A stretch of DNA of 64,000 nt from Dysidea avara (Eukaryota; Porifera; Demospongiae; Dictyoceratida; Dysideidae), in contig NC_089285.1 of assembly GCF_963678975.1 (NCBI RefSeq), forward strand, positions 12,215,725 to 12,279,724, read 5' to 3'. The notes beneath the pieces are model-generated. The model was not told the origin of the DNA, did not search any database, and saw nothing but the letters and a program-made list of their open reading frames with translations. The position numbers and the translations under genes were made by a program. Positions 5,351 to 57,323 of the stretch are shown here, in pieces; position 1 is the first letter of the stretch, and each line of letters begins with the position of its first letter.

Positions 5351-5985
5351 TTTAATAAGTCAAGGCAGTCTGACCGCACTATTCTTTCCTATGCTGTCAG
5401 TGCGTAGATATACTAACCCCAGGTAGTATATCTATGGTCAGTGGTATTCGTGACTCACCAGTCATTGTTACAAAAATAGTAAACAAACAAGTATAAGGGA
5501 AATTTTATATTAGAGAAGGGAACCCTCTGCCTTCTGTGTACACCCTCCAGTGCCTAACTGGTAAAGTAGATAATAACAATAATAATAACAACACTGAACT
5601 AGAAATAAAAAGCAAGACAACAATGACTGAAGTTGTCCACTATAGATGCATGTGTAGATGACCAAATTTCTTATACTTGTCTTAATTAGGGTGATAGCTA
5701 TATGGATCACTTGAAAAGTTAATCAATCAATGAATTTTTTATGATCAATTGAACTATTCAAAATATTCGTGGTCAGCATAAATCAGAAACCGCATGGTGA
5801 CGGTCAAAAAATTGTATGGGTGATGAGCACCAGTTACGTTACTACAAACACTAAAGTCCAAGAGGTGACCCTAACTTTCTTGTTGAGTTGACATGGAATG
5901 ACTCTTCTAGTATTATTATTAACACTTTACAGTGACCAGCACTGAATTATATGTTTAATACATATGTTTTTATTCATCATTGTAG

Positions 5986-6254
5986 AGTGATTTAGTACCT
6001 TCTGAAATGCAAGTATTAAGGTGAAGGCAAGACAAAGAGCTTTCGATTTTGGAATGAAAGACTTCATAGTGGTGTCTGCAGTGAGTGAGTTTGGTAAGAC
6101 CGTCTCAGACTAAAACATGTCAGTCCTTTAAAGTTGTAAATTTTTGAAACTGCTATAGGTTTTAGACCATATTATTAAAGAACAAGAAGATGGTGTTATA
6201 CATGTAGAATCAAAAGACACCAATCAACAATCTGGCTGCCGATATCGATGCTAG
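5986..6254 (+). pseudogene. Rab-GTPase last two exons, degenerate copy (left)
   Basis: This matches exons 9-10 of the CARD-Rab gene (23580-23881). It starts at the SDLVPSE codons. One A is lost in the GAAAATG run, which breaks the frame. The segment coding for GAGMDELFGRVV is deleted, and the same deletion is present at 33403-33672. It sits tail-to-tail with the GH32-D fragment. Confidence 0.85.
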
Positions 6255-6390
6255 ATTTTGTTGTAACGTTATCTATACAGTAACCATCCCAAATGGTATA
6301 TACCACTAAAAGTTGACAAAATAAAAATGTGTGAAAGTGTGTGCACAAGTGCATGCAACATATTGTTTGGACACACATAATAATAATCAA

Positions 6391-7795
6391 TTATGTTTCT
6401 TTGTATGCATCCTTCATTACCCACGCGTCAACAGTAAATATTGCTGAAGTATTCTCAGTAAAAAGGACAACGCTATTGGAGCTGGCTAGGGTAGGGTAGA
6501 CTCGGGATGTGATCACTGCTTCACCCTTGTTAACAAACACCTCCACTGCACTCTTGTCTACCATTATCTCCAGAGTGACTAACTGGTCATGGCTATTCAC
6601 TTGAGCAGTATAAGACGACTTTGTTACATTAGTGGCAGGTAGTAAACTTGAATTAGTTGTTGAAACTTCCAGTTGTAACTAATTGAGTTAGCACATATCA
6701 CACACTGGGTAATCTGGTCACTGATCTCACCTGAGTTGAAGTGGTTCCTGATGTGCAGTTCACACGTGGTACAGGAGATGGGTGGGCATTTTTTAGCCAA
6801 CAACAAGTCTCATGAGATACACAAGTGAATGCAGAGTTGTTACCATAGTCAGTCTACAAGTGTGGTGTGTACATGTAAAAGCAGTTACTGAGCGTGTATG
6901 ATTTGTACAGAAACTTTAATTTAATTTGAAATTTTAGTACTATTTAGCACATATATTATGTTTATAAATGACGTACATGTTTTTGACAAATACATAGGAT
7001 AAAGGGATAAAATATAAGTATAATAATTATATGTTATTAATGGTGCACTCACCAGCAGTGGCTGAGGATCAGCAAAAGTCCAAGCCACACAACCAGAGTC
7101 TGCACAACAAGCTTTCTGACATACTGCTGGATCATGTCCATCCACCTTAAAACTATGTATATAAACATAGAACAGGAGAATGTTATTCCACTTTGCAAGT
7201 CCCATTACACCAGGTAAGTGATACCAGTTTGTATATAATATTCATTATAGCATACTTGTTGTCATAGTGCATTCACCAATCTCACATACTTAGTATAATC
7301 TGCTCCCGGTGTATCTGTACCAGTTGACCATTGTCCAATATGATTACAGTTGGAACCTGAAGAAACAATATAACTTCTTTGTACTGATTAGCTTACAAGA
7401 AATGATAAAGTAAAATGTGATCAATATAAAGAATGTTGCCATATTTCTTCATAGTTATCATGTCAGAGTATCTGACTAGTACTTACCAGAACTTTGGATA
7501 TTAATAGCAGTAAATTCTTTCATATTGTCATCAGCTAAAACTAATATTCCCACCTTGCTGTTGGGAGAGAACTTTCCCATTATGGTCACTACCATGTGGA
7601 GCTAATATGAGACAATAATTCAACATGTAGCGATAATGAAACATTACTGACTTGATTTCCCATGCCTCCAAGTTCATATGTTGCATTTTCTGGAAGAGAT
7701 ATTTCATTAAAGTAGCCCAAGTGATCTCCAGGTAGCAAACTTAGCTCCTGTAAACATAACATGTATATAAGTGACACTGACCTTAATGCAACCAA
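6391..7795 (-). pseudogene. GH32 glycosidase copy D, 3' part (exons 10-15)
   Basis: Only the 3' half of the gene remains: exon 10 (about 7650-7747, [12 protein letters not shown]), exon 11 with [11 protein letters not shown], exons 12-14 encoding the cysteine-rich PAN/apple-like module ([16 protein letters not shown] and CCWLKNAH), and exon 15 (start of ORF segment near 6678, stop at 6391) with [20 protein letters not shown]. That last segment is the GH32 C-terminal beta-sandwich signature. Homology to copy C stops at about 7795 in the exon 9-10 intron. There it joins an F-box/LRR gene through about 13 bp of filler. The catalytic half is missing, so it cannot encode an enzyme. Confidence 0.85.
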
Positions 7796-7805
7796 ACATT
7801 GTGAC

Positions 7806-9442
7806 TAACTATTCTTTACCATGTGAAATACTAGTTTTGATTGCTTCAATGCTAACTTTCCATGATGAGTCAATCTACGAAGCATTTCCTCAAGATTGGA
7901 AAGTGTATGCGATACACCGTCGTTGTGGAGAAGATCTCGGAGAAGATTCACCTGGCCACCACAAGTTGTGGATGCCCGCAACTGTGCGTACAAGGTATTA
8001 AGGTGGTATGGTCAGTATATACGAATACTATACTTTCCTGATGGCGTGCCTCTTTTCAATCTGCATTTGGTAAAGATATTACAAAGTTGTGCGAACCTTG
8101 CCTCACTTAGACTAATAGTATTTCGTGGACCCCACAACTACGACAAGTATTCAGTTTCCGTCATAAGATTGCTGAAATTTACATTAGAGTAAAGAAGTTA
8201 CAGTGGCTCGAATTCCTTATAGATGTAGATTCATGGCTGGAAGATTGGGCAAAGAATGATTTTCAGCCAAAAATGTTAAATGTTGTTGCTGGAGAGGGTA
8301 TTCCAGTAGAACAGTTCATAGAAAAGTGGCTTCAAGTTCAAAAGTCTAGTTTACCTATTGACCACACTGGCTGTCTTAAAATATTCAGTGCTTTAAAGGT
8401 ACCTATGGATCTTTTCCCTGCATTACCGAACTTTCAGTTGCAGCTTGGTCAGTCATGCAGGTTGCCATTTGTAATACCTAGAGTGTGCGGGTTGTTGGGA
8501 TTTGAAAAACATGATATTTTATTGACTGATTGTACTTTTGGCCATGGTGACTCGGCTAAGGTATACAAGGCAGTGTTGATCAGGCACATTCCTGGTATTG
8601 AACGTCGCCACTTCAGAACTGATATTACTGGTGTATATCTTACGCATTTCGATGCTTCGATGTGTAGTTTACTTTTTTCTGGTCACCTAAAACTGTTAGC
8701 CAATAGTTGTCCTAACCTAAAACACATCAACTTAAGTCAAAATGAGGACTGTTTGAGGAGATTAGATGGTTTACAAGCGATTGCTACTATCTGTAAAAAT
8801 CTTCAAGGGCTAAATTTACTGAATATTTCAGTAGTGGAGAGTCATGCAGTGTTGTGGAAAATCTTAGTTGATATGAGGCTGACTTATCTGGCAATTGAAC
8901 TCTCTTTGTTATTACCTAATGGGCAAGTCACACCACAAATTATTATCTCGTTCCAACAATTTTCAAAATTACAAGCTTTAGAAGTGCACAATAATGCAGG
9001 TTTTCATACACAATGCAACTTATCAGTGTTGTGCCACTTGCCAGTGCTTATTCATTGTTGTATATCCAATATACAGAATGATGTTCAAGTTGTGATTAAT
9101 TGTTGTTCAAACCTAAAACATCTGGTGTATAACAGTAATCAAGTCCCAAAATGGTTATCCACATGTGTAGAAAATAGTCATTTGGAACAGCTGTGTATTC
9201 TGACAGAATTCCAAAAGGATGTGAGCCTGGGTGATGAGTTTATGCAGACAGTTTCTGCACATTGTGGACTTGTGCATGTCTTTCTGTGTGCTTGTACAAT
9301 GACAGAAAAGGGGATTATTGCCATGATTAGAAATTCTTCAAAACTGCTGACATTTCACATTCATGTAAACAATATTACAACACCTGATGGATTTATCACT
9401 TTGATCAATATGAAGGAGCTACTGGAGAAGGGAGTTTTGTAA
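7806..9442 (+). pseudogene. F-box/LRR protein, copy 1, broken
   Basis: It begins inside the F-box (SLPCEILVLIASMLTFHD); the start codon and first dozen codons present at 54844 are missing at the duplication/deletion junction. One base is lost in the CATGAT(A)GAG run, which shifts the frame, and a second shift lies before 8190. From about 8200 to 9442 one long frame is open and encodes leucine-rich repeats (for example NLKHINLSQN, NLQGLNLLN). It is closely similar to 56626-57120 (inverted copy) and more distantly to the intact gene at 49950-51962. F-box/LRR proteins are substrate receptors of SCF ubiquitin ligases. A shorter protein from the downstream ATG at 8273 cannot be excluded. Confidence 0.8.
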
Positions 9443-13640: not shown

Positions 13641-14623
13641 TACACTCTGCAGTACACTCTTTTGCCCATGATAGCCCTTTAACAAGTTCCTCTCTGTAAT
13701 CTGATACAACCAGCTCTTGCATTGTCTGGCAACATCTGCATACATGCTATCCCCCACCAAGATTGCACTAACAAGTTGTACAACCAAACAAAATGTTCAG
13801 CAAGGGGGCCACTGTGAGCACTCAGGATTAGCTTCCTTAAGATGAGTTGAAGCCACTGCTCATCTTCTTGACTTGCACTTGGTAATATAACACGTTATCA
13901 ATTCCAAACTGGCTAGCTTGAGAACTATCTTACATGCTTGTTGCTCAGGACCCCTGATCAATATAACCATAGATTATAATCTATGATATAACGTAATACT
14001 TCGGCAACATACTGATGTATCCTCTAGTCTATTACCAATGCTGCTGGGCTAATGACGTAATTGCTAGGTGCAAGCTGACATGTCATCAACTACATTACTA
14101 CTACCACAACAGCAACTTGCACTTCTGACTCACCTAGACTTTCTATGGGAGCAGGCCCACCAAGGTTACAAGACAATGCATGTATCTGCATTTAGAGCTC
14201 TGCTCTGTGAATAATATCTACATTCTTGAGTCCACTACCAAACACTTTTGTCCATCATCGGGCATGTTTTCCAGATATGTTTGGGTTGAACAAAACAGCC
14301 ATGACTGCTTAATGATCAGAGTAGATTGTGATTTGTTGGTTATAAAGGTAATGGCTGATTGCCCACACAATAGCCAAAGTTTGCAGATTAGTTATACCAT
14401 AGTTCCATTCTGCTGGAGACAGTGCTCTACTTGCATAAGACACAAGATGTACACAATCATCTTCTTGTATTTGTGAAGAGTGTTTCTCCCATGCTTGAGC
14501 AACAAGCATCCATACCAGGATGAATCCTTTGTTAAAATTTGGATAATGTAACACTGGAGCTTCAGTCAACTTCTGCTTCAAGAGACTGCATGCTTGTTTG
14601 ACTGAAATGAGCATTTTCGCCAC
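13640..14623 (-). mobile_element. Ty3/Gypsy retrotransposon fragment (RNase H to integrase zinc region)
   Basis: From 14623 downward the minus strand encodes KLTEAPVLHYPNF, then SYASRALSPAEWNYGITN, then the SDH region, the standard RT-RNase H junction of Gypsy elements. Further down, AVMAVLFNP and HARWTKV continue the RNase H. GDSMYADVARQCKSW near 13720 resembles the H2C2 zinc region before integrase. Stops and frameshifts make it a dead fragment. No LTRs were found. Confidence 0.7.
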
Positions 14624-15362
14624 ATGAAAGTTTGTCCTCTTACAGTGCAGTTGTAACTGACTTTGCTTATTTTTGTCTGTTCTTGTATGGTATTGTTGTG
14701 TGCCTTTATGATTGTTGTCCTTGTACCTGTATGTATGTCTCGTCCATTTGCCTTTGTGTTTTGATCTACTAGGATTGTTACTGTGTGTATGAAATGAGAA
14801 TTTAAATACATTATGTAGAAAATGCCCAAGACATTGAAAGAAGTTGATGAATTAGCTGAGAGGGTGAAAACAAAAAGAAAGCAAAGAGAAGAATCTGTAT
14901 AATTAGCATCTATAATAACTTTAACACACTGTGTTGTTGTCATTTGTGTAACCACTAACCACTGTATAGTTACGCATGTATTTGGAAATGTCATTGATAT
15001 ACCAGCATAGTTATACTAATACCAGCATGCATCAGCATTAATTTCCTTATGATTGGAAGAAATCACAGGGATAATATAACTAAAATGGCCATCATTAAGT
15101 TTGTAGAAAAGCAGTCACATCTGAGGTTATGCTATTAAGTCTTAAATTTCAAATAAGGTAATTTTTTTTCCTGGGCAAGATGCTATGCACTTGCATGGTT
15201 TTGTTCTCCTAGCCATATACCAGCACCAGCATAATATAATATCCTTTGGTTCTAGATGGACTAGATCATTGGATCACGTGCTTGATACCGTCAAAAGGGA
15301 AAGTCCCGTGTTTATGGGCTCTTTGTTTATCGATCGTGTCATTGTATCAGGCTCAATGTTAC

Positions 15363-18300
15363 ATGGCTGCTAATGCTGTGAGAGAAGATAACGAGATCGC
15401 CAACATCGTTCTCAGGGACATGCACAAAGAGTTGGTGTTGCAGATCAACGTGGACGAGATCACAATTCATTTGGTGTCTGCTGGAATGATCACTAACTCA
15501 CAGCGCGAAACCCTACAGAATGACAGGTGTACGGAATCGAGCAGAAATGTGTTTTTACTGAGTAATGTACTGGGAGGGAAAGGCTATTGGGGACTAAAAA
15601 CACTGCTAGCTGCTCTAAGGGGTGATACTCTATATCAGCCACACATAGAACTTGCTAATAGGATTGAAAATAAGTATTGTGAGCGGTCGCAGCGTCCACT
15701 AAGTTTTGTGCAGCCAGCATCTCAATCCCATGTTAATCAGCAAACTCCTGACCCCAGGACTGGTGAATCACCAAGTACCATGTCGTCAACGATCTCTCAA
15801 CAAGGGTACTACCTTCGATTTACTAACCCTGGAGATTATCATGTGAAACTGAACTTATCTGAAAGTAGTGGATCATTACAAAGTCAGCCTTTAGTGTGGC
15901 GCAGGAATCATAAGGTTAGTATGTACTTACAATAACTTTTTGTGGGTGGGTGTGCATGCGTGCATGCGTGTTGATACCAGGCTGCACCAAATTCCCAATT
16001 GTCCTTGGCGGTTGGTAATGGGTTATTGTTGAACTTCACACTCCATTGATGACCTGGATAGTCCTCCCATGGGTTACTATTCCTGCTGCATTTCACTTCC
16101 GTAATGATGCAGAATCAAGTAATTTGAAATGACATTGAAAAAACATATACAGTCCAACTGTACAACTATCGCCTTTTAAAAACTGATTTGAAGTTCCAGG
16201 CTTACAATGTTGTCTTATAAGGAGTACAGTTTGACACTGCTTGAAAAATGAAGTCTCATATGCGTTTACTCTTATTAATCAACCATGTGTTGAGTGATTT
16301 GTGGAACAGCATGGTAGCAAATCATCTGCTTTGGCTCCTACTAGGAAGCCTTTTTTATCTATGTCAAAAGAAGAAGATGAGTAAGTAAATTGATAGTAAC
16401 ATTATGGTAAGCTAAGCCAAAAGAAACCTGTACTTTCATAAATTTAGTGCGTATACTAATCTGTAGGTGTATTGATATGAATACTCTATTAGAGTATCTC
16501 GATCTTTAAAAAAGCTTTCTTCCATGTAACCTCTCTAGATGTCCCTGAGAAACTATTTAAGTTTTTAGAATGTTGTGTTCTCAGTGTGTTGTTTCTCACT
16601 ACTTCTGTACCGCCAACATCGGTTCCTGCTGTGAAATTAAATTTAAAAGGAGTTTCCTGAAGCACTTCTTAGAAACTCCCTCTATATATCTGTAACAAGT
16701 GCATACTCAGCTACACATATCAGTTAACATTAGTAAATGTAATTGCTAATGATGCCGTGTAGTGAATTATTTGGTGCTCAATTATATTTCAGGACACAGA
16801 AAGTCATGATAATGGCGAAAATTACTCCTCTTGTCATTCTTCACTTTCATCACTATCAGTGAGTGTATGCAGTGTACTGTTGATTGAATGGGAGAAGTTC
16901 TTCACAAGTGAAGTAAAAGATCATCTTTAATGATGAGAGGTTGTAGTTTGCACACTTTGAATAAGCACACTGCATATTTGACATAACCCTTGTTTCATGG
17001 TCACCGTGCTGTGTGTGTACAACTTTTGTTGGGCTTGCAACTTGTTTCTGGTTCAGGAGGATTCCTAGAACTCTGCCATCATGGCTCACTGTACTGTGGC
17101 AGCTACCAAGTGACCAGGTGTGTGTAAATATTTTTATTTCTCCTAGTCACCACCACCACCACCACCAACAACAACAGCAATAAGATCATCACCAATATTG
17201 GCAACACCGAAAAGAGTAATTGCTTCCACTGATAGTGACTTAAAAGCTGTGTTACAAAAGGTAACCATATGCTGACACATGTTGAATATGTACTGGTATT
17301 TAAAAACATATAGCTACCTTTCGAACAATAAAAAAATTATAAAGTAACACCAGGTTTGCTTTCTGGAGACAGACTTCTGTAGGCATATCAAAGTGCACCA
17401 TCACTCTAGAGGCCTTGGAACAGACTATGTTATTGGCTTAGAACGGCTTGCAATGTTACACTAATGTACTGTGAAATAATTTGTGCCATTGCAGTCCATC
17501 TAGGCATGTGTAATTTGACCTGGAGCTTGCTATTTATAATTATTACACTCATCCGTTTTGAACCCTGACTGTTATCCACTCAACCATCCCCATCCTCCAA
17601 CCCTTTTTGAGGACCCCTCTTCCAGCAACATTTGTGAAAAAAAAACCTGATGGGAAATTGTAGAAGATGTCTCTTATACTCTAGATGCTTTAAATGCTTA
17701 TATGTGTCCATCTTACTCATAACTATCAAGGTTCAAGGCTGGTGAGTTATTACAATTTAAAGTATATGAAATGCTGTTTACCCACCATTGTACATATTGT
17801 GCTCAACAGGTAAGATTTCAAAATAACAGGTCACATAATATTATATGGTTTGTCATGCATGCTCAACGCCAGCAACGTCTTTTGACCTTTTTGGATTTGT
17901 GATTATAGAGCGTGTATTGTTAGATTCATTGCAAGAACGCCAGGTAACTATGGATTTATTACTTAGCCTTTTAATACATAATGAGAAACGTATGCAGCTA
18001 CATGTACGGGTATTTCTTTTGTATATTTTTAGTACAAAAGACTGCAAGATTCAAGACATTTGAAGATCATTCTGGTGGGGGATTCGTCTGTTGGAAAAAC
18101 ATCTATTATCCAGCAGTATGTGCATGGGGACTGTGGGACCCCACTAGCAACAGTATCCTTTGAGAAGTGCAAGATATGTGTTTTTTTTTGTCTTATAAAC
18201 TGAATTAGTTGGGAACCGGCTATGTATGCCAGTATGTACATCATACAGTGATGGATACCAATGTGAAAATGCATCTGTGGGACACTATGGGACAAGAGCG

Positions 18301-21300
18301 ATCTAGATCCATTACCAGAGTGAGTATTTAAAGTCATAGTTGTCAGCTACTACAATATCAAAAACAGGACCTGGGCATCTTCCTTGTACCACACAAAAAT
18401 TCACTTGTTACAGTTTTATAACCCAACATTTACCTGAAGTTTTGATTAATTTGTCTTGAGTGCTAAGATAGAGATACTTATTAATTACACAAGTATACCA
18501 ATAAGCATTGTGCATATTATTATGTATCATGTACCACGGTAGTGGTACATAATAGGGATCAGGCAGAAATTTTTCAAAACACTCTAATAGAACGCACGCC
18601 AAAAGCAGCCTTCCGGGCTTTAAATTTTATTTCTAAAACATTCTAGACCTTTCTTTTGTGTTTACAACACTAGCCAACAAGTATTAAAAGTAAGGGAAAT
18701 GGTTTTAGGTGTTTTTTAAAATTTTGAAAATGGTTAGATTCTCCATCTTCTTTCTTTCTTCTTTCTTCTTTCTTTCTTGTTTCGCGCGCCTACAGCTCGT
18801 AGGAAGTAGATATCAGCCCTAAAAACGTATGGCGTATTTAAAAAACATTCGTACCCAGGTCTGTGTGGTATTAAAATCTTCCCTCTCTAATGCGATTGCG
18901 AGATATAGAGCAAGAATCACTCTTCGAGATGCCATTCGATCGAGAAGCCATACAGATGATAATATAGAATTGTTTAAAATTCCATTGCTTTAGCTCACAG
19001 GACTAAAATGCATCAAGTTGTATCACACTAAACATTAAACATAACTATTGTTCACTGAAACTCGGGTTTTAGACTTCCTTCATTACGAGACAGTGAAGGG
19101 GGTGTGGCCCGCACCTCGTCACTTAAACTATTACTGTACGCCTTTCGTGTATACTTTCTATTATATTCTTCAGCTGTTTACCAGCTAAGAGTCGACATAA
19201 CAAGGCTTGTAAGCTATTGGAACACACTGGTAAATTTCGAATTGAAAATGGGTGTGTCCCTTCCGTACGCGATTGAAAAATAAAAAGCGGGATACTCCGT
19301 ATACTCAGCACTTTAATTGGAGTCGACCACGTTTTGTCAAGCGTGTGTTTTATTCGTGTTGACATTTCGCACCGCTTCGTTGCAGTAAACGGTCACACTA
19401 GTGGATTTATCTACTCGTCAAAGTATTGTTTACTGTATTGTTAACTGTATTGTTAACTAATTGTTTATTAAACTTATTTATGTAATTGTTTATTGCCAGT
19501 TGATATTACAATGGGTTTCTTTATTAAACAATCATGTACTGTTGAACGTATATTTAAGAAGTAGTCCATGTGCATGGACATGAAAAAAATCATGAAACTA
19601 GTGGGGCAAAAAAATTATTAATTTTCAACAAGTAGAATAGGGATCAAAGATTTGATTTTGAAAAAAACTGCGTAAACAAGAAGTAATAGGGATGATAATC
19701 CACAAAATTCTATGCATCATCAGTTCAAAGCAAGTTATTTGAATAGTGTACACTCAATTTGCGATTCCTATTTCAACTTGTGGTTAAATTTTGTTAAAAT
19801 GTTGAAATAGGAATCGCAAATTGAGTGTACACTATTCAAATAACTTGCTTTGAACTGATGATGCATAGAATTTTGTGGATTATCATCCCTATTACTTCTT
19901 GTTTACGCAGTTTTTTTCAAAATCAAATCTTTGATCCCTATTCTACTTGTTGAAAATTAATAATTTTTTGCCCCACTAGTATATATATATATATATATAT
20001 ATAGGCATAGCAACCCCCTTGCAATTTTCTGGTTGTAAATTGCAAAAGATTGAGATACTCTAATAGAGCAGTCAATTACTCTAATAAAGCAGTCACAGTC
20101 TTCTGAGTAGTGTAGCAAACTATTTGAAGTTGTAAATAACGATTTTTATGTGTTTTATCAGTGATACAATGTATACCTATTTGGTGGAAGGCAGCCATTT
20201 TTAGCAGGTATTGACCTTTTTTTTTGTTCTTCAACATTGTTCCCTTCCAAACCGAGAGCCTAGAGTCCCCTTATCTAATAATATCTTGCTACACCTATGT
20301 ATGCCTCACAATACCTTCATGGAACCTTGGCAGTATTACGTAGGTATAATCAACCCAAAGGTGCTTACAGTGTAACAAAAATGCTTCCAGTTGATTGCTA
20401 CAATCTTTATAGCTTTAAAAAAAAAAATTTAACAGACGTTTACTGACTGATTAACTAATTGATGCCTTCAGACAAGCGTGATTCAATAACAACTAATGTT
20501 ACAAGCTTGATTCTTTCACTGTTAGATGTTACTCAACCCGACAGATGTCTTTTGGCATACTGCAGTATGTACAATGCGTGCATCATCTACTTACTTTTGT
20601 GAGTTTATGTCCTGGCTGTCACTATTCAGCAGACTGGACTACTAGTTAAACACTGACATATTTTTTTGATTTTGCACATTCTGTGGTTGGATTTGCTGAG
20701 TTTCGCTAGTTAAGAGCCTAGAAAGCCTGCTACTAAACTCTGAATACAAGCAGTGAAATATGCAAAACCATCTTTAATAATTTTGCTACTGTTTGTTGTG
20801 CTGCTATACAGCACTTCACTCCTTATTCTGCTGTATAGTAATGCTGCAGGGAATGTGACAGTGATAGTTAACCAGCAATCAGTTTGTCAGGGTGGCCTCC
20901 TACACCTGCAGATATACTAGCGGACATTTGATCCCTACCTCAGTCATGGCTATAGTAGTGCTCAGTGATATCGGTAATACCGTTTATCGTGATAAATTAA
21001 CATAACCGGTTATCATACCGTGGCAGTCTTGATAACCGGTATATCAAAATACTGGTATAGGATTGTTTTAACCCAGCTAGCCTTTGGTGTTTAAGTACTC
21101 AATTTGTTGATGTTTAGCAAGCCACACCCTAAACAAACACTGAGGTTGCCACATTACAAGCACTTGCCTACTTGTGCTGAACTACATTCTTTGGTTTTTG
21201 GGAGGCATACCTATTCATAATATATAGGCCCAAGAAATGACACAATAGTCGCTATAACAAGCTAACTATATACCAATATACCACGATAATTTCCTGTTAC

Positions 21301-23881
21301 TAATACCATGCATGTATTCAAATGTTAATACCGCCGAGCATTAGGCTGTAGCAAAGAATATATCTGCAGGTGTAAGTGACCTCCCCTGTTTATTTCTGTT
21401 ATCCTTAAAATTCCTTGGTAGTACAATTTGAAGAAAGGAAGAAAGATGTTGCTTCACAATAATACGAACAACTGTGTTCATTTGTATATACAGTGCTGCA
21501 TTGTGTGTAATAGCAGTAGAAACCAAGAATGTCGAACGATGTATTAGCCCGTGATTAATGATTGCGTAAAGTAACATGGATATTTCAGTAATTGTTTGTT
21601 TACGTGAAATGGTAATTTGAAATGCGTATGTGGCAATGGGTCTTTGTTCACCAGTTTTCCATGTTATTCAACCAAGTATTCAACAGTTATTGTACAAAGA
21701 AAGTGTAGTAAGGACCCAAGATAACTCCAGCTTGCTAAAACAACGGTTGGCCAAACGAGCGTGTTGCCACGCCTTCAGGGATCTGCTTGGCATTGCCAGA
21801 ACTTTAACATTAGCTAATTCCCTTTAACGCTATCATGTTTTCGCATGGTTTAGTGGCTGAATTGGGCTAAACACAGCAACCCTTAATGGCAATGAAAACG
21901 AACAATTACTGAAATATCCGTGTTACCTTACGCAATGATTAATCACGGGGTAATACACCGTTTGATACTCTTGGTTTCTATTATATACTCTTGGTAGTAG
22001 TAATAATCTAGAGTGTGGTGTTATATTATAATGTTTGTGTTTACTGAAGAACTTTTACCAGAAAAGTGATGCTGCAGTAATAGTGTTTGACTTAGTATCA
22101 GAAAGCACATTCAATTCAGTACATTGGTGGCTCAAGGAGCTTCATGACCACTTACCTTCAGAGAGGAGAAATATCCCAATCCTTCTAGCAGGAAATAAGG
22201 TTTGGAAATGATTGAGTATGTTGTCTTTGTGGATACAAATGCCGGTGAAATGTCTTCATATATAAAACTGAAATGAACTTTTCACAATAAAATTCTTGTT
22301 ATCATCTCCTTGATTAATGTATAAACCTACTTTACATACAATAGTCAATGCATCCTGTACATTAACAGTCACCTCACTTAATTACGTACTGTATGTACTT
22401 AATTACTATGATTAATTACTAAACTTGGAATCAGTAGAACTTGACCATCTCTGTGAAATTCAGCTTTATAGCCTATCCAAAGTTCCGAATCAATATAACT
22501 ATTAATATTATTCACAAGTGAAATTATGGGTTGTCAAGATCGACTTTTTGGTGTGCAATATTTTTAGCCCCACAGACCACTTAGTTTCTGATTTGTCACT
22601 ATATACAAATATTTTGAATACCTGTCTCATGAAAATAATTATTGGTCTGTCTCAAGTATATATGTAACTTTGTATTGTGGTGATATTTTTAGGATGGCTG
22701 GCTGTGATATTGTGTGAGCATTGTTAACAGGAAGAGATAAAAATAGTGTGAGGCGAAGCTGAGTACTGACAACCAATGTAATTATTACTATAAGCAACAT
22801 AATTTCAAATAAAAACCATTGCAAAAGAACAATCAAACTTAGCAAAGCATTGCTATGGCTGTATACGGGTCGAACATACCTGAAAGTGAAGTGAGGTAGT
22901 CCTTCACTTCCCAGTAGTTGATGGTCAGGGCACTCGTTTAATTGGAATTTCTTTCTGTAGTGATTGGATTGATTGCTGAAGCGCACAGGCACTTCGTGTA
23001 CTATGAAACGGCAACAACTGATTTCCAGTAGTTGATAGTCAAGGCAGTCTGACGGCACCATTCTTTCCTATGCTGTGGCATACATGGTTCACCAGTCATT
23101 GTTACAAAAATAGTAAACAAACAAGTATAAGGAAAAATGGAAATTTTATATTAGAGAAGGGAACTAGGGATCATAGAAATAAAAAGCAAGAAAACAATGA
23201 CTGAAGTTGTCCACTATAGATGCATGTGTAGATGACCAAATTACTTTTCCCTTATACTTGTCTTAATTAGGGTGATATGGATCACTTGAAAGGTTAATCA
23301 ATCCATGAATTTTTTTATTTAAAAATTTAAGACAGACCAATTGAACTATTCAAACTATTTGTGGTCATAAATCAGAAACTACATGGTGACAGGGTCAAAA
23401 AATTGTATGGGTGATGAGCACCACAGTTACTACAAACACTAAAGTCCAAGAGGTGACCCTAACTTTCTTGTTGAGTTGACATGGAATGACTCTTCTATAA
23501 TTATTATTATTATTAACAATTTACAGTGACCAGCACTGAATTATATGCTTAGTACATATGTTTTTATTCATCATTGTAGAGTGACTTAGTACCTTCTGAA
23601 AATGCAAGTATTAAGGTGAAGGCAAGACAAAGAGCTTTTGATTTTGGAATGAAAGACTTCATAGTGGTGTCTGCAGTGAGTGGAGCTGGTATGGATGAGC
23701 TGTTTGGAAGAGTAGTGACTTTGGTAAGACCGTCTCAGACTAAAACACGTCAGTCCTTTAAAGTTTTAAATTTTTGTAACTGCTATAGGCTTTAGACCAT
23801 ATTATTAAAGAACAGGAAGATGGTGTTATACATGTAGAAAAAGACACCAATCAACAATCTGGCTGCCGATATCGATGCTAG
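15363..23881 (+). CDS. CARD - Rab-type small GTPase fusion protein
   Basis: Nine exons join in phase: 15363-15914, 16793-16858, 17147-17260, 17911-17943, 18033-18152, 18209-18319, 22050-22199, 23580-23723, 23789-23881, giving about 460 aa. Residues 1 to about 105 form a CARD death-fold (helical, with VSAGMITNSQRETLQ and LLAALRG). A Ser/Pro-rich linker with six prolines follows, then a short LLDSLQERQ helix. The GTPase has P-loop GDSSVGKTS, switch II WDTMGQERSRS, VIVFDL, G4 NKSD (split by an intron) and G5-like VSAVSG. The tail ends GCRYRC. These are Rab-family features. The fusion rests on consistent exon phases on one strand; no transcript was seen. A possible extra exon (16310-16380) does not fit the phase. 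The 3.7-kb intron 18320-22049 is filled with repeats. Confidence 0.75.
16485..16700 (+). repeat. Dispersed repeat (TCTATTAGAGTATCTCGATC family)
   Basis: It starts with the ATTAGAGTATCTCGATCTTT motif and ends with GTTTCCTGAAGC and AAACTCCCTCT. A related copy lies at 44390-44660. It falls in an intron of the CARD-Rab gene and has no coding capacity. Confidence 0.5.
19597..19980. mobile_element. 384-bp near-perfect palindrome (foldback element)
   Basis: Two arms of about 180 bp (19597-19777 and 19801-19980) are reverse complements with only an A-run length difference, around a 23-nt loop. Both ends read ACTAGTGGGGCA or its complement, and AGGGATCAAAG/CTTTGATCCCT lies inside. It is followed at once by (AT)12. 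It sits in the large CARD-Rab intron. Confidence 0.9.
19981..20004. repeat. (AT)n microsatellite
   Basis: About 12 AT units abutting the long palindrome. Confidence 0.9.
20275..20660 (+). repeat. Dispersed repeat shared with 49400-49620 and 63340-63700
   Basis: Shared blocks include CAAGCTTGATT(T)CTTCACT followed by GCATACTGCAGTATGTACAATGC-like sequence. They also occur near 49490-49570 and, partly inverted, near 63460-63620. No long reading frame. I could not place its ends exactly. Confidence 0.4.
21500..21990. repeat. Inverted-repeat element in the CARD-Rab intron
   Basis: The left arm (about 21500-21605: AGAAACCAAGAAT, GATTAATGATTGCGTAA, ATATTTCAGTAATTGTT) is matched in reverse by 21895-21985 (AACAATTACTGAAATAT, TTACGCAATGATTAATC, TCTTGGTTTCT). 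About 290 bp lies between, with no convincing gene. The arms have diverged, so the element is older than the 19.6-kb palindrome. Confidence 0.65.
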
Positions 23882-24048
23882 AAATTTAGATTTTGTTGTA
23901 ACGTTATCTATACAATAACCATCCCAAATGGTATATACCACTAAATGTTGACATTTTCAAGCAAAATAAAAATGTGTTATTGTGCTTTTCTGTGTAAAAG
24001 TGTGCACAAAAGCAACATATTGTTCAGAACACACATAATAAAAATCAA

Positions 24049-27000
24049 TTATGTTTCTTTGTATGCATCCTTCATTACCCACGCGTCAACAGTAAATATT
24101 GCTGAAGTATTCTCAGTAAAAAGGACAACGCTATTGGAGCTGGCTAGGGTAGGGTAGACTCGGGATGTGATCACTGCTTCACCCTTGTTAACAAACACCT
24201 CCACTGCACTCTTGTCTACCATTATCTCCAGAGTGACTAACTGGTCATGGCTATTCACTTGAGCAGTATAAGACGACTTTGTTACATTAGTGGCAGGTAG
24301 TAAACTTGAATTAGTTGTTGAAACTTCCAGTTGTAACTAATTGAGTTAGCACATATCACACACTGGGTAATCTGGTCACTGATCTCACCTGAGTTGAAGT
24401 GGTTCCTGATGTGCAGTTCACACGTGGTACAGGAGATGAGTGGGCATTTTTTAGCCAACAACAAGTCTCATGAGATACACAAGTGAATGCAGAGTTGTTA
24501 CCATAGTCAGTCTACAAGTGTGGTGTGTACATGTAAAAGCAGTTACTGAGCGTGTATGATTTGTACAGAAACTTTAATTTAATTTGAAATTTTAGTACTA
24601 TTTAGCACATATATTATGTTTATAAATGATATACATGTTTTTGACAAATACCATAGGATAAAGGGATAAAATATAAGTATAATAATTATATGTTATTAGT
24701 GGCATACTCACCAGCAGTGGCTGAGGATCAGCAAACGTCCAAGCCACACAACCAGAGTCTGCACAACAAGCTTTCTGACATAATGCTGGATCATGTCCAT
24801 CCACCTTGAAACTGTGTACAGGATGTGTATCAAACATAACAGTATGATGTGTATAAAATGGCATGTTTGCAAAAATCCCATAGGTAATATTGTATATGTA
24901 ATGGATTTAGAGCAGGAGTAAACTCTTCCCACTCTAAATCCATTTTCAGTGGTTATGCACCAGGTAAGTGATACCAGATTTTATATATGTCAAAGCATCA
25001 CCGCAACTGCTCTATACAAGAAATAAAGCACACTGAAAGAGTAGGTGAGAGAGATAAATGTACTATATTTTATCTTGAGACCACTCTTTGAGTGCTACAT
25101 TTTGCATATAGCATGAGCAAACTGATGCTTTAACTAGTATAGAGAACCGCCTTCAACCTGAAGTAAACAACGTGTATGAAACCACTGAGTAGTCTTGAAA
25201 TCCATTACAATCACAAGCTGTTCTATAGCTACCTGACATAGAACTGCTGATACATATATGTTAATATTTTATACACGAATTATCTGTATAATAGTTAAAA
25301 ATAATTTGTCGTTTTAATTTTTGTTGATACAGCCAGCGATGAAAATTTTGACGACAAATTTTTCCTGATTTACGGTAGTACATTCACTGATATAGAATAG
25401 GACACTATTTACATACTTGGTATAATCTGCTCCTGGTATATTTGTACCAACTGACCATTGTCCAATATGATTACAATTGGTATCTGAATAAACAATATAG
25501 CTTCATTAAAGCATCTTACATTAAACCAATCTGCATGCAAGAGATTATATAACAAAACATGATTAATATATATACTTCTTCATGATAATCATGTAAGAGT
25601 ACCATACTAACTAGTACTAAACATACTTACCAGAATTTTGGATATTAATAGCAGTATATTCTTTCATATTGTCATCAGCTAAAACTAATATTCCCACCTT
25701 GCTGTTGGGAGAGAACTTTCCCATTATGGTCACTACCATGTGGAGCTAATATGAAACAATAACTCTACATGTAGCGATAATGAAATACTGCTGACTTGAT
25801 TTCCCATGCCCCCAAGTTTGTATGTTGCATTTTCTGGAAGAGGTATTTGATTAAAGTAGCCCAAGTGATCTCCATGTAGCAAACTTAGCTCCTGCGAACA
25901 CAACATGTAAATAAGTGACATTGCTTACATTAGACCTTAAGGCATGAATGAGTGTGACTCTATACCTGAGTACTGCCTAGCAGTACTGGTGAAAATTATT
26001 ACTATGCATTTCATCAATTACAACCCCCCAGGCCTTCCCTTCTCAAGTGAAAGTCTTGTACAGTACTAACCTCCACAGGGTTGAACAACAAGGTGTTATC
26101 ACGAGACAATGATATTACCCGTGGTACACTCTGCATACCTAAGGATATAAAATATACACTATCATTACAGCTATATAGTGAGCCTTTATTGTTGTGCTTG
26201 TACAAATGACTTTTGGATTCAGTACATGGTCTGAAAGTATCTCATAGATAATACCATACACTGTATTTTGCTAGCTTTACAAATTGCTTTTACCTTTTCT
26301 TGCAGCACTACTAATGCCATGCACTAATCAACCTGATTTAGTGTTCTGACTGTCCATGGTGGAAATGGTAGCACTAATTTCAAATTCTAAATCAATCTGG
26401 AAAACGTGCAATTGAACCATGAATCTACATATAGGTACAATTAACGAAGCTTTTGAAAAATGCAAAAGTTTATTTCACAATACTTTTATGTTGCATGTTA
26501 CTACATGCTATGGTTGTTATAAACTTTAGTTATATAGGAATTTACAATGTGTTTATGAGTTGTGATGAAGAGTGCTACAGTAACTACTAGCATGTACTAG
26601 TCACCATAGGACATCTACCATATTACCTGCCCAGCCATTTTTATGAATAGTATCATCAGATAGAGACTCTGATATCCAGCCATACACTATCCTCCTACCA
26701 TGTGGATCAAAGAAACTATTAGCAGCATAGAAGTGACCATAGTCAACCATTCCTTTTGAAACTGTTTGGAATTTGTAACCAGCTCCCTGAAAATGATGAT
26801 GATGACGGTAGGTTTTGCAATATCAGTCTCACCATTTTGCCAACAAACCATAGTGATTTCCCCAGGTTGGGAGATGAGTAGATATACACATAGAGTTGAT
26901 CAGTAATAGGAAACATGTCTACACACCTGTAGAAAACAAGATACTTGACAACATCTCACAGTATTTAAAGTATTATGGTTTAGTACCCAGAGCAGACCAA

Positions 27001-30000
27001 AGAGTTACATATGGGGGGAGGGGGGAGTGTGAAGGCAACTTTGGCAATTGAAGCTACACAATGGAATTTGAAACATATAACATACGTACATGGAGGTAAT
27101 TTTATATCTGCAATATAACTATATTGACAATTACATAGTGGATATTGTGCTGGTACTTGTTAACAAGTATGAATGGCTATTGTGCCGGCATAGTAGTATT
27201 CCCTGAGTATTCCCCGAGTATTCGACTTTAGGACATATGACCAGTAGTTTGCCTCAAGTCTTGTACGTTTAGGGCATATAACAAGTAGTATTAGCATTAG
27301 GGTTAGGGTCGGGTTCATCTTTGGTTTCTTCTTCACTTCAGTTGGACATTTATAACGTAGAAACTAATGCAGATCAGTAGCTGCAGCACTGGTGGTACAG
27401 TGGTTACAAGTATAGACCATGAATATGGATGCCAGGGTTCGAGCCCCAGCTAAGACAACATTTTTCCCCCACTTTCTTATGTTTTTTGTCGAAGTTTTTT
27501 TTAAATGCACGTAGCTTCCACTGCTGGCAAAATATTCAGTGAAACAGTGGGCTCTATAACCTGTCTCACAATTATTGAAGAAATATAAAGTGACTGACTG
27601 TTCTGTTAGATTATTAAACTGCTCAATTAAATATCTCGCTGTTGCAATTATTGTCCTTGGTCCATTTTCACCACCTATGTTAATACCCATCATATGTTTG
27701 CATTGAACTCACAGCAGCTAAAATAGTGAAACATCCCAATATCAGGACCAATAACCAAGTAGAAATGCAATATACAGATATATACATATTGTACACATAC
27801 TCTGCTCTAGGTCCAAGGGTACTGTTTCCAATCCATACAGTTGATACATACTCCCAGTTTATCAGGTTACTGCTGTTAAATAATAATGCCTGTGGAATGC
27901 TCCCTATCAGTGAAAATGAATGTGTAAATAATTTAAGCTAAGAAGTTTATACTAGGCTGTAAGCTAGTAACAGTACACTGTACAAGTCTTCAGCATGCTA
28001 TTATTATACTTCAAAGTTCAATATTGCAAGTGAGCTATAAAGATCATACCAGTTTTAGTTGGATCACCTTGAGCAGACCCAACCAGCACCATGTAATCAC
28101 CAGATGGCTCTTCCTATAGGTATAAAACAATAGTCATGCATACACATACTACATTGACTGTAAAGTGAAAAATCTTAATTTAATTTGTTGGAGGTAACAA
28201 TTATTGAAACATTTGCTGTAAAATGAGAGCAATCTCTACCTAGAACATACATGACTAGCATGACGTTTCTTTGAACCATCCAAGAAACATGAGTATACTG
28301 TGAACGTGTGCATGAAGTTGAGCATGGTGTGTTTACTCCCTTGGTGTTGTCATCCTCGGGTGGTATGGCTTGTGAGGCAATTGTTTTTTTATAAAAGGCT
28401 GGCTGAGCGTGTAAGTCAAAAGTGGGAGGAAAGTTATTCAGTAGTTATGGGTTGGCTACAATGTCAAATCTCTTTTGCTATGTTGAGATGTGCCATTATG
28501 TGCATTCGGAGCAGCTGCTCTTCAGCTGGACACCCAGTGATGGAAAATGATGCATCCCTGGCTGTTGCTGAAGGAGAGCTACAGCTTGACTATTGATTTT
28601 TTATTTCATTGCTTTATTTATTATGTAAAATATGGTCATATGTCTACTTGAAAAAAAATACACACATGACTAGCAGTTGAGAAATAGATTTTAAGTTGGG
28701 GAAATGCTAACCTGTCTGACTTACTTCTATGCAGTATTTACTAATATTACAAACAGTTGGCAGTAGGTACACTGAAGTGTGGTATATATACACTGATGTG
28801 AGGTATCTATACCTGCCATATGTGAGGATCACCAACATATGAAGCATTGATAGAGTTGGGGGTAGTGATTATTGGAGCAGGTGAGGAAGTGTTCCATGTC
28901 ATCAGATCCTTGTCCATACTAATGCTTAGACCAACCCCTTTAGACATGCCATATACGGCCACACCACTACAAATTAAATTAAGATTTACATGGTAATTTA
29001 CACACACAGGAATGTAATTTAGCTTCAATCAATGGTGCATATTAGAGTACCACAGTATGTCTAAACAACCAGTAGTCCTCCAGTCCTTTTTCCCCAGTGG
29101 TTAAAATAGCTGCAATTTAAGAAATTGTAGTAAATGTTGAGGTACAGTCTCCACACCTTTAGGTGGTACTGTTGGCTATATAGGCCCACATACTAAGTTA
29201 CTTGCTCTTCATTCAGGGATCTTCATCAGTATTGGCTGATATTAATTATTATTGAGACGATGTCTGAAACCACAGTAACAGCAGAAGATTCCCTAATACT
29301 ACATTTCCCCAGCCATTTTCGACCAACAACATTTCTGTGCAACAGTTCTGTGCAACAATGGAAAAAATTGAAGTGGTGAGGTGGAAAGTGATGCAAGTCG
29401 AAAAAAAAACAATGTCTAAGTTTGCCTAGTATAGATATTGTGAGGCAGATTAACCATGCCAATTGGAGGATACTATGATCAGTACAAGCAAAAATACCTT
29501 GAGCGCAAGTCTCATATCCTTTCTGATGCATTTACTTACACTGTTACTTCTTTGTAAACATTGCCGCAAATTAAACACACAATGGCTATGAACAAGTTAG
29601 TGCCATTTCATCAAGACCACACCCCTTACTTGCATTTTGATACTTTGTACAACTTCGTAATTTCTAGTATATACCATACCACTGATATAGTAATATAATT
29701 GTAACAGAGTTGTGGGTTGTATATAGTGTGTACTTGTATGCATGCATGCAGTGTTAGCTATTTGGGACATGTCAATAAGAATAATACAGGGTGCATAAAT
29801 GGTCTAGGATTCTAGCACTTGTGCTGTAACAGGGAACCCCAGTCCGTTACATTGGAGGTTTCACCTAGATAGAAACAGTACAGAAGTTGTTGTGACAACT
29901 AGGAGTTCAATCATTGGAGGAAGACATTTGCTGCCAATAACTTTTGAGGATAATCACTAAAGGCATCCAGAGAGCTCTCTGGGTGAAACTGAGAGCCTTG

Positions 30001-32835: not shown

Positions 32836-33402
32836 AAGTATAAGTCAAGGCAGTCTGATGGCACTATTCTTTTCTATGCTGTCAGTGCATAGATATACTA
32901 ACCCCAGGTAGTATATCTATGGTCAGTGGTATTCGTGATTCACCAGTCATTGTTACAAAAATAGTAAACAAACAAGTATAAGGGAAATTTTATATTAGAG
33001 AAGGGAACCCACTGAACTAGAAATAAAAAGCAAGAAAACAATGACTGAAGTTGTCCACTATAGATGCATGTGTAGATGACCAAATTACTTATACTTGTCT
33101 TAATTAGGGTGATAGCTATAGATCACTTGAAAAGTTAATCAATCAATGAATTTTTTATGATCAATTGAACTATTCAAAATATTCGTGGTCGGCATAGCTA
33201 AATCAGAAACCGCATGGTGACGGTCAAAAAATTGTATGGGTGATGAGCACCACAGTTACTACAAACACTAAAGTCCAAGAGGTGACCCTAACTTTCTTGT
33301 TGAGTTGACATGGAATGACTCTTCTAGTATTATTATTAACACTTTACAGTGACCAGCACTGAATTATATGTTTAATACATATGTTTTTATTCATCATTGT
33401 AG

Positions 33403-33672
33403 AGTGACTTAGTACCTTCTGAAAATGCAAGTATGAAGGTGAAGGCAAGACAAAGAGCTTTCGATTTTGGAATGAAAGACTTCATAGTGGTGTCTACAGT
33501 GAATGAGTTTGGTAAGACCGTCTCAGACTAAAACATGTCAGTCCTTTAAAGTTGTAAATTTTTGAAACTGCTATAGGTTTTAGACCATATTATTAAAGAA
33601 CAGGAAGATGGTGTTATACATGTAGAATTGAAAGACACCAATCAACAATCTGGCTGCCGATATCGATGCTAG
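33403..33672 (+). pseudogene. Rab-GTPase last two exons, degenerate copy (right)
   Basis: A copy of CARD-Rab exons 9-10. The frame SDLVPSENASMKVKARQRAF is open. The codons after IVVSTV are then lost by the same deletion seen at 5986-6254. The upstream exons and P-loop are not present, so it is a non-functional tail carried by the GH32 duplication. Confidence 0.85.
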
Positions 33673-33827
33673 AAATTTAGATTTTGTTGTAACGTTATCT
33701 ATACAGTAACCATCCCAAATGGTATATACCACTAAAAGTTGACATTTTCAAACAAAATAAAAATGTGTGAAAGTGTGTGCACAAGTGCATGCAACATATT
33801 GTTCGGAACACATATAATAAAAATCAA

Positions 33828-36800
33828 TTATGTTTCTTTGTATGCATCCTTCATTACCCACGCGTCAACAGTAAATATTGCTGAAGTATTCTCAGTAAAA
33901 AGGACAACGCTATTGGAGCTGGCTAGGGTAGGGTAGACTCGGGATGTGATCACTGCTTCACCCTTGTTAACAAACACCTCCACTGCACTCTTGTCTACCA
34001 TTATCTCCAGAGTGACTAACTGGTCATGGCTATTCACTTGAGCAGTATAAGACGACTTTGTTACATTAGTGGCAGGTAGTAAACTTGAATTAGTTGTTGA
34101 AACTTCCAGTTGTAACTAATTGAGTTAGCACATATCACACACTGGGTAATCTGGTCACTGATCTCACCTGAGTTGAAGTGGTTCCTGATGTGCAGTTCAC
34201 ACGTGGTACAGGAGATGAGTGGGCATTTTTTAGCCAACAACAAGTCTCATGAGATACACAAGTGAATGCAGAGTTGTTACCATAGTCAGTCTACAAGTGT
34301 GGTATGTACATGTAAAAGCAGTTACTGAGCGTGTATGATTTGTACAGAAACTTTAATTTAATTTGAAATTTTAGTACTCTTTAGCACATATATTATGTTT
34401 ATAAATGACGTACATGTTTTTGACAAATACCATAGGATAAAGGGATAAAATATAAGTATAATAAATTAATTATATGTTATTAATGGTGCACTCACCAGCA
34501 GTGGCTGAGGATCAGCAAAAGTCCAAGCCACACAACCAGAGTCTGCACAACAAGCTTTCTGACATACTGCTGGATCATGTCCATCCACCTTAAAACTATG
34601 TACAGGATGTGTATATAAACATAGAACAGGATAATGTTATTCCACTTTGCATGTCCCATGCACTATCAGTGGTTACACCAGGTAAGTGATACCAGTTTGT
34701 ATATAATATTCATTATAGCATACTTGTTATCATAGTGCATTCACCAATCTCACATACTTAGTATAATCTGCTCCTGGTATATCTGTACCAGTTGACCATT
34801 GTCCAATATGATTACAGTTGGAACCTGAAGAAACAATATAACTTCTTTGTACTGATTAGCTTGCAAGAAATGATAAAGTAAAATGTGATCAATATAAAGA
34901 ATGTTGCCATACTTCTTCATAGTAATCATGTCAGAGTATCTGACTAGTACTTACCAGAACTTTGGATATTAATAGCAGTAAATTCTTTCATATTTTCATC
35001 AGCTAAAACTAATATTCCCACCTTGCTGTTGGGAGAGAACTTTCCCATTATGGTCACTACCATGTGGAGCTAATATGAGACAATAATTCAACATGTAGCG
35101 ATAATGAAACATTACTGACTTGATTTCCCATGCCTCCAAGTTCATACGTTGCATTTTCTGGAAGAGATATTTCATTAAAGTAGCCCAAGTGATCTCCATG
35201 TAGCAAACTTAGCTCCTGTAAACATAACATGTATATAAGTGACACTGACCTTAATGCAACCATCTGTGACTCTACAACCTGAGTACTGCCTATAGTGCTA
35301 CTGGTGAACATTATTTCTATGCATTAATTACAATCTTCCTTCCCTTAAGCTTCTCATGTGACACATCTTGTACAGTACTAACCTCCACAGGGTTGAACAA
35401 CAAGGTGTTATCAGGAGACAGTGATATTGCTCGTGGTACACTCTGCATACCTAAGAATATAAAACGTACACTTTCATTATAGCTATATAGTGAGCCTTTA
35501 TTGTTGTGCTTGTACAAATGACTTTTGGATTCAGTGGATTAGCCTGAAAGTATCTCATGGGTAATACCATACACATGCAGTAGTTTGCTAGCCTTACAAA
35601 TTCTAGCTACTGTAAACCTGGCAAACTTTTGTGCAAAGCGTATTCGAACCATGAATCTACATAGCTATAAGAATTAACCATCATGAATGAAGCTTTTGCG
35701 ATTTTGTCACATGCAATTGTGAACAATGCAAAAGTTTATTTATGCATATACTCTAAGCTACTACATGCTATGGTTGTTATAAACCTTATTATAGGTAATT
35801 TACAATGTGTTTGTGAGTTGTGACGGAGAGCACTACAATAACTACTAGCATGTACTATAACCACCATAGGACATCTGCCATGTTACCTGCCCAGCCATTA
35901 TTATGAATAGTATCATCAGATAGAGACTCTGATACCCAGCCATACACTATCCTCCTACCATGTGGATCAAAGAAACTATTAGCAGCATAGAAGTGACCAT
36001 AGTCAACCATTCCTTTTGAAACTGTTTGGAATTTGTAATCAGCTCCCTGAAAATGATGATGATGATGTTATGCAGTATGTTATGTATTCAGTCTCACCAT
36101 TTTGCCAACAAACCATAGTGATTTCCCCAAGTTGGGAGAAGAGTAGATGTACACATAGAGTTGATCAGTAATAGGAAACATGTCCACACATCTGTAAGAT
36201 GCGTACGAGTGGTAGAAGACAATAAATGTGAAGCTAAGATGCTTGACAATATTAAAAGTATTTTTGTTTAGTACCCAGAGCAGACCAAAGAGTTAGGAGG
36301 GCCAACTTTAACAATTGAAGTTAAACAATGGAGTTTGAAGCATACAACATACATGGATCTCATGTATGGGGGTCTGGGGGAATACACCCAGAGAAATTTT
36401 ATATCTGTAATGAGTGTTTGCTAATAAAAATTGAGCAGCTATACTTACAATTATTGAGGAAGTTACGAAATTACAAATATTGAAATATAAAGTGATCGAC
36501 TGTTCTGTTAGAGTAGTTAGAGTATTAGACTGTTCTATTGGAGTATCTTACTGTTACAAGCATTGTCCCTGGTCCATTTCACCATCTATGTTAATACCCA
36601 TCATATGACTCACAACAGCTAAAATGGAACATCCTAATATATCAGGACCAATTAGAATGTTCCACTGTTTTAGCTGTTGTAATAACCAAGTAGAAATGTA
36701 ATATTATATACACATTGCACACATACTCTGCTCTAGGCCCAAGGGTACTGTTTCCAATCCACACAGTTGAAACATACTCCCAGTTTATCAGGTTACTGCT

Positions 36801-38597: not shown

Positions 38598-38678
38598 TCA
38601 ATTAAAAGTCACACTGACTGACTTTTAGCGCAGGCGCACCTTCGGATTAATTGCATGCGAGAACAGTGGAAGTAGAAA
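38598..38678. promoter_or_regulatory. 81-bp divergent promoter region of GH32-C and GK5
   Basis: The start codons of the two genes lie about 80 bp apart on opposite strands. There is no clear TATA box. GCGCAGGCGCA at 38628-38638 resembles the NRF-1 consensus often found in bidirectional animal promoters. The same block is kept upstream of GH32-B (near 31311) and, one or two bases shorter, of GH32-A (near 4830), where transposons have pushed the two starts apart. Confidence 0.55.
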
Positions 38679-51962: not shown

Positions 51963-52044
51963 GTGTTTTTAATGAAAGACAACATGACGTAAACATCGTT
52001 GTGTTATATATACTATAGCTAAAAGTGGAGATTTCACAGACTGA

Positions 52045-57145: not shown

Positions 57146-57323
57146 ATTTACTGATGGATCATAACAGACATTTTTTCATTTTGGTCCACTGTATGTATAT
57201 GGGATTAATGTCATGTTGCTATATATATAGTATGTATATTATATGATTTCTTGTTTAGCACAAGTAAAGGATTGGGCACTAATTTTCTTGGCAGTAGTAT
57301 ATTTATTATCAAACTAAGTATTT

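Follow-up and report, generated by a model that had tools for sequence, protein, structure and literature searches.

Does the sponge Dysidea avara encode, in a single gene, a CARD death-fold domain joined to a Rab-type GTPase? Each domain is well known by itself: CARDs serve in cell-death and immune signalling, and Rabs are GTPase switches that usually mark cell membranes. A preliminary description proposed such a fusion at positions 15363-23881 of a 64-kb stretch of the genome (C14:12215725-12279724, hereafter the window, whose positions are used unless a contig is named). Our analysis indicates that one gene very probably encodes a CARD-Rab protein, and the most economical reading, to which we assign a probability of roughly 0.6, is that its product would be a GTP-switched, membrane-addressed CARD adaptor. 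The preliminary description had likewise suggested a nucleotide-switched scaffold, one that would bring CARD partners to a vesicle. The proposed fusion is well supported by a tandem paralogue with matching exon order and phase. Exon phase, initially taken as the main argument for one gene, does favour it, but the paralogue is the stronger support.

The nine plus-strand exons are present as described, apart from the start of exon 6, which was moved. All have AG/GT borders, lengths divisible by three and phase 0, and together they encode 460 aa: an N-terminal CARD (residues ~1-108), a Ser/Pro-rich linker (~109-260), a C-terminal Rab-like GTPase (~265-430) and a short tail.

15363-15914, + strand: exon 1, start Met, CARD (~residues 1-108) and beginning of the low-complexity linker; donor AAG/GTTAGT, phase 0
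16793-16858, + strand: exon 2, linker DTESHDNGENYSSCHSSLSSLS, phase 0; an isolated island with 82% DNA identity to the paralogue
17147-17260, + strand: exon 3, proline-rich linker, phase 0; the paralogue has an exon with the identical end AVLQK/GT
17911-17943, + strand: exon 4, RVLLDSLQERQ, phase 0; the weakest call
18033-18152, + strand: exon 5, beta-1 and P-loop GDSSVGKTS (G1); the last residue is the switch I Thr
18153-18208, + strand: intron 5, 56 nt, putative U12-type 5' splice site GTATCCTTT, shared with the paralogue
18209-18319, + strand: exon 6, switch I/RabF1 region, WDTMGQE (G3) and RSRSIT; acceptor corrected to 18208
22050-22199, + strand: exon 7, G domain core up to AGNK (first half of G4)
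23580-23723, + strand: exon 8, SD of NKSD (G4) and SAV (G5)
23789-23881, + strand: exon 9, C-terminal tail ending GCRYRC, stop

Paralogue conservation at this point (CGTGYFTQYVHH versus LGTGYVCQYVHH) is the reason for placing the acceptor of exon 6 at 18208. A start at 18233 (acceptor 18232) and an alternative donor at 18180 were both rejected on paralogue evidence. The correction regained switch I and lengthened the protein from 452 to 460 residues; Pfam scores rose for Ras (101 to 105.6 bits) and Roc (81 to 89.8) and fell for Arf (61.9 to 60.9) and EF-Tu (23.9 to 21.4). Exon 4 comprises 11 codons behind a poor acceptor (GATTATAGAG) and agrees with the paralogue candidate at 5 of 11 aligned residues, and exon 9 is the second weak exon (tblastn match to the paralogue 42% over 26 residues, E 0.037). 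An additional exon at 16310-16380 (HGSKSSALAPTRKPFLSMSKEEDE) was rejected: its phase 2 donor would put exon 2 out of frame, and a tblastn search of the neighbouring DNA gave no counterpart. Intron 6 holds a near-perfect palindrome (19597-19980; 385 alignment columns, 96% identical to its own reverse complement), perhaps a foldback element or one resembling a miniature inverted-repeat transposable element.

The paralogue emerged when the whole genome (550.8 Mb, 108 contigs) was searched at E 0.01 with the G domain as first modelled; all 129 candidates were scored. Among the 86 places matched, those at least 55% identical all lie on C14, and the others reach at most 46%. The paralogue occupies C14:12203834-12212397, upstream of the window, with a start-to-start distance of ~27 kb. 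As modelled, it has nine exons in the window-copy order, GT/AG borders, phase 0 throughout and 470 residues, and its protein is 73% identical. In order and on the same strand, tblastn matched exon 1 (80% over 182 residues), exon 2 (71% over 21), exon 5 (70% over 43), exon 6 (68% over 28), exon 7 (82% over 50) and exon 8 (79% over 48). Neither blastn nor tblastn matched exon 3 in the paralogue, where a frame ending AVLQK/GT is found instead; the tentative counterpart of exon 4, NLFDSLQ, has 23 codons and scores 25, versus 14 for the next unrelated candidate. Exons 1, 2, 3, 4 and 9 differ in length between the copies, and in each case the frame is preserved.

At the DNA level, blastn of window positions 14001-24500 against 19 kb around the paralogue recovered exons 1 (first part), 2, 5, 6, 7 and 8, missing exons 3, 4 and 9. 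Upstream of exon 1, sequence is conserved at 14001-14173, 14623-14740, 14790-15146 and from 15294 onwards; a downstream match covers 24049-24499, and two short matches (25 and 34 bp) are antisense. The same comparison found no conserved DNA directly upstream of the GTPase exons, exon 5 included. Two partial copies also lie within the window.

6003-6251, + strand: exons 8-9 only; no exon 1 or exon 5 match beside it by tblastn (E up to 1)
33403-33669, + strand: exons 8-9 only; no exon 1 or exon 5 match beside it by tblastn (E up to 1)

The junction between the CARD exon and the remainder of the gene was compared further by means of P0001, the one CARD relative among 31 proteins returned by three protein searches (the other 30 match the GTPase side). 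In one of these searches scoring was limited to the 7997 candidates with the most shared words. The collections may have omitted proteins of this genome, and a deposited model of the gene could therefore exist. P0001, from a 906-bp contig, matches exon 1 only; it is 69% and 70% identical to the exon 1 proteins of the two copies, which are 80% identical to each other, and is therefore an outgroup that derives from a different species or a different copy. Exon 1 ends K/GT in both copies, and P0001, which is known at the protein level only, reads K then V at this point. The three read-through tails past exon 1 (VSMYLQ, VGRKP and VSDHPYDLFCKFL) share nothing beyond the first 1-2 residues, as expected of an intron. 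The window copy has no Met from residue 141 to 309, and its P-loop lies at 271; for the GTPase to be made separately there, an unseen first exon would be needed.

We estimated the ratio of non-synonymous to synonymous divergence (dN/dS) with our own Nei-Gojobori count for one pair, the window copy and the paralogue, using Fisher's test, which treats sites as independent. The ratio was 0.14 for CARD residues 1-108 (93.5% identical, p 3e-5) and 0.39 for the remainder of exon 1 (p 0.004). The linker exons were individually non-significant: 0.28 for exon 2 (p 0.11), 0.65 for exon 3 (p 0.45) and undefined for exon 4, where dS is saturated (dN 0.97). Low ratios returned in exon 5 (0.13, p 3e-6), exon 6 (0.16, p 1e-4) and exon 7 (0.12, p 7e-7); exons 8 and 9 gave 0.83 (p 0.76) and 0.63 (p 0.40), exons 5-8 pooled 0.21 (p 1e-12) and all 446 codons 0.32. 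By these counts, CARD and G domain are both under purifying selection. Gene conversion between the copies is likely, because dS spans 0.14 (exon 8) to 1.5 (exon 5).

The N-terminal domain is assigned as a CARD on its predicted fold and on profile comparison. The Pfam part of the profile test fell just short: exon 1 alone scored 22.2 bits against PF00619 at residues 17-87 (E 1.5e-4; curated cut-off 23.9), the full proteins of the two copies 21.0 and 21.3, and P0001 20.7. Profile-profile comparison with eight CARDs from this genome gave a good match (91.4%), and an AlphaFold model of moderate confidence is CARD-like, with helices at residues 2-19, 21-27, 30-39, 45-53, 58-70, 75-86 and 92-109 that form a six-helix death fold with a broken helix 1. 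Nearly all of the 50 Foldseek matches listed are CARDs, the exceptions being two designed proteins, Fas death domains, CYRI-B and CorA.

The C-terminal domain matches Pfam Ras at residues 266-429 and retains G1 GDSSVGKTS, G3 WDTMGQE, G4 NKSD, G5 SAV and the switch I Thr, which is followed in the corrected model by LG, where Rabs have T-I-G. All of the best 60 of 917 PDB sequence matches are Rab/Ypt or Rab-like, and on these matches the domain is closer to Rabs than to Ras, Rho, Arf or Ran. Within the same 60, Rab5, Rab7, Rab6, Rab11, Rab27 and others score close together, so no Rab subfamily can be named. According to the available parts of two surveys, Rabs are required to have at least one RabF motif (igvdf, klqiw, rfxxxt, yyrga, lvydit; PMC3192815), and proteins without C-terminal prenylation residues are set aside as Rab-like (PMC2954822). 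By eye, the paralogue has RFNSIT, which fits rfxxxt, and KLYLW, and in the window copy the motifs read RSRSIT, KMHLW and IVFDLV; LGTGY and FYQKS are poor fits. The paralogue also ends in CSC, a prenylation tail of the Rab type.

Taken as a GTP-switched, membrane-addressed adaptor, the protein would be a large Rab in which a death-fold adaptor replaces the usual N-terminal EF-hand/coiled-coil part. The GTPase would act as a nucleotide switch that places the protein on a chosen membrane, in the paralogue through its CSC tail, and the membrane-held CARD, on a linker of ~150 residues, could when clustered seed assemblies with another of the genome's many CARD proteins. A bolder form of this proposal, which we regard as possible yet distinctly tentative, is a lineage-specific signalling protein in which the Rab switch and membrane address directly gate CARD nucleation. 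With Rab and CARD adaptor in one molecule, GTP loading of the Rab would then be required for a death- or inflammasome-like assembly to arise on the organelle chosen. Some observations weigh against the adaptor reading: RabF1 and RabF4 are poorly kept, and the window copy ends GCRYRC, without a standard CC/CXC tail, so that its lipid anchor may be lost or altered, or its prenylation non-standard. A short GTPase form would be possible in the paralogue, which has Met at 238 and 276 ahead of its P-loop at 282.

The window-copy G domain could instead control CARD clustering as a soluble assembly module that depends on nucleotide, comparable to the NTPases of Apaf-1 and NLRs. The CRYRC tail, which recurs without CC/CXC in both partial copies, speaks for this, as does the good Roc score (89.8 bits), given that Roc domains occur in death-domain proteins such as DAPK1; but the closest PDB matches are Rabs, neither copy has a COR domain among its Pfam matches and the paralogue retains CSC, and we consider a soluble module unlikely. 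Alternatively, the single gene might encode a decoy or regulator whose CARD, bound to a membrane, would sequester its CARD partners instead of activating them. Inhibitors with a single CARD are known, ARC and ICEBERG among them, and no caspase, kinase or NACHT domain appears among the Pfam matches of either copy; nothing specific opposes a decoy, which the sequence does not separate from the adaptor reading, and we judge it rather improbable. Least credible, and in our view very improbable, is that adjacent genes, one encoding the CARD alone and the other the GTPase, were duplicated as a unit and merely look like one: tandem duplication would keep neighbours in order whether joined or not, read-through of the exon 1 donor would give a short CARD-only tail (VSMYLQ-stop) and the paralogue has its two Met residues before the P-loop, but the exon 1 donor is present in both copies, in agreement with P0001, the read-through tails are unrelated, interdomain exons 2-3 recur in the paralogue with phase 0 on both sides and are Met-free in the window copy, as is the whole of residues 141-309, and no conserved DNA precedes exon 5.

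The 56-nt intron at 18153-18208, which interrupts the switch I coding region, is likely to be U12-type. Both copies begin it with GTATCCTTT, given as a U12-type donor in the available part of PMC7367187 and found a single time on the two strands of the 64-kb window; the intron is 56 nt long in the window copy versus 1130 nt in the paralogue. Against this class count the bias of U12-type introns away from phase 0 (PMC7367187, part available) and the candidate branch points (CTTATAAAC, CTTATATAC), which are poor U12 matches.

Just upstream of the gene, 14309-14851 (-) encodes an RNase H-like domain from a retroelement fragment, and a reverse transcriptase domain at 52427-53002 (+) marks another. 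The downstream neighbour (24049-24336, -) carries a GH32 C-terminal domain (Pfam 6.6e-17), which is unusual for an animal. It lies in a segment, 24049-28448, that is duplicated at 95.9% identity. The copy begins 3.2 kb ahead of the window and ends near window position 1217; 5600-7779 and 32926-37777 are additional partial copies. A single intronless open frame of 512 aa at 38676-40214 (+) contains FGGY carbohydrate kinase domains. An F-box protein frame lies at 49950-51968 (-); by eye, 8111-9442 (+), which has no Pfam match, and 56219-57147 (-) resemble diverged copies of it.

PF00619 is absent from the precomputed domain annotation of all 30 GTPase-side proteins, but such annotation would overlook CARDs of this kind, since that of P0001 is empty too. 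A Pfam scan of ten relatives found a CARD in P0001 only (for P0016, among the best 25 of 32 matches). CARD exon alignment scans gave 111 pattern matches in viral contigs and 127 in genome contigs, none confirmed by tblastn. At E 0.001, and with 150 of 331 candidates scored, the sponge's own genome has at least 127 CARD-like places, which by eye fall mostly on C1, C6, C7 and C9; none of those listed is on C14, so this search misses the window CARD too and says little about other copies. Among the places listed, the CARD-like one nearest to a GTPase place, by eye, is ~230 kb away, on C11. A survey of Dysidea avara describes 39 CARD genes and NLRs; the available part of it mentions no CARD-Rab, and its main text does not contain 'gtpase' (PMC12909245). 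The CARD-Rab would add a domain combination to the CARD repertoire of a CARD-rich animal genome.

Among known proteins, the closest in layout are the large Rabs, which have EF-hands and coiled coils. From the available part of one account (PMC8303950), whose main text does not contain 'card', Rab44, Rab45/RASEF and Rab46/CRACR2A-L resemble the CARD-Rab in having a C-terminal Rab domain and an N-terminal protein-protein module, and Rab44 and Rab46 further share a proline-rich stretch ahead of the Rab domain; they differ in that the N-terminal module is an EF-hand and coiled coil rather than a CARD. Pfam gave no EF-hand match up to E 0.01 in either copy. Sponge CARD combinations include CARD-NACHT-LRR in Dysidea avara (PMC12909245) and a gene that pairs Ig domains with a CARD, listed in a sponge expression study (PMC6208332); the available parts of these two papers contain no CARD joined to a Rab or other small GTPase. 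The preliminary description knew of no Rab with a CARD, and among the titles and abstract openings listed in searches of the open-access literature we found no description of the two domains in one chain.

ROCO/DAPK1-type proteins do unite a death-fold domain and a small-GTPase-like domain in one chain, as a Roc-COR tandem and a death domain; the CARD-Rab differs in having a CARD rather than a death domain and a G domain whose best matches are Rabs. It has the CARD fold in common with Apaf-1, NOD1, CED-4 and MAVS. Apaf-1 and NOD1 join this domain to a nucleotide switch, a STAND/NACHT ATPase, and MAVS joins it to a membrane anchor, a transmembrane helix. Where Apaf-1 and NOD1 have the switch and MAVS has the anchor, the small GTPase of the CARD-Rab could do both jobs. 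The fusion would tie membrane identity to death-fold signalling within one chain, a connection that otherwise takes separate proteins to build, and would offer a compact system for asking whether a GTPase cycle switches CARD assembly on a membrane.
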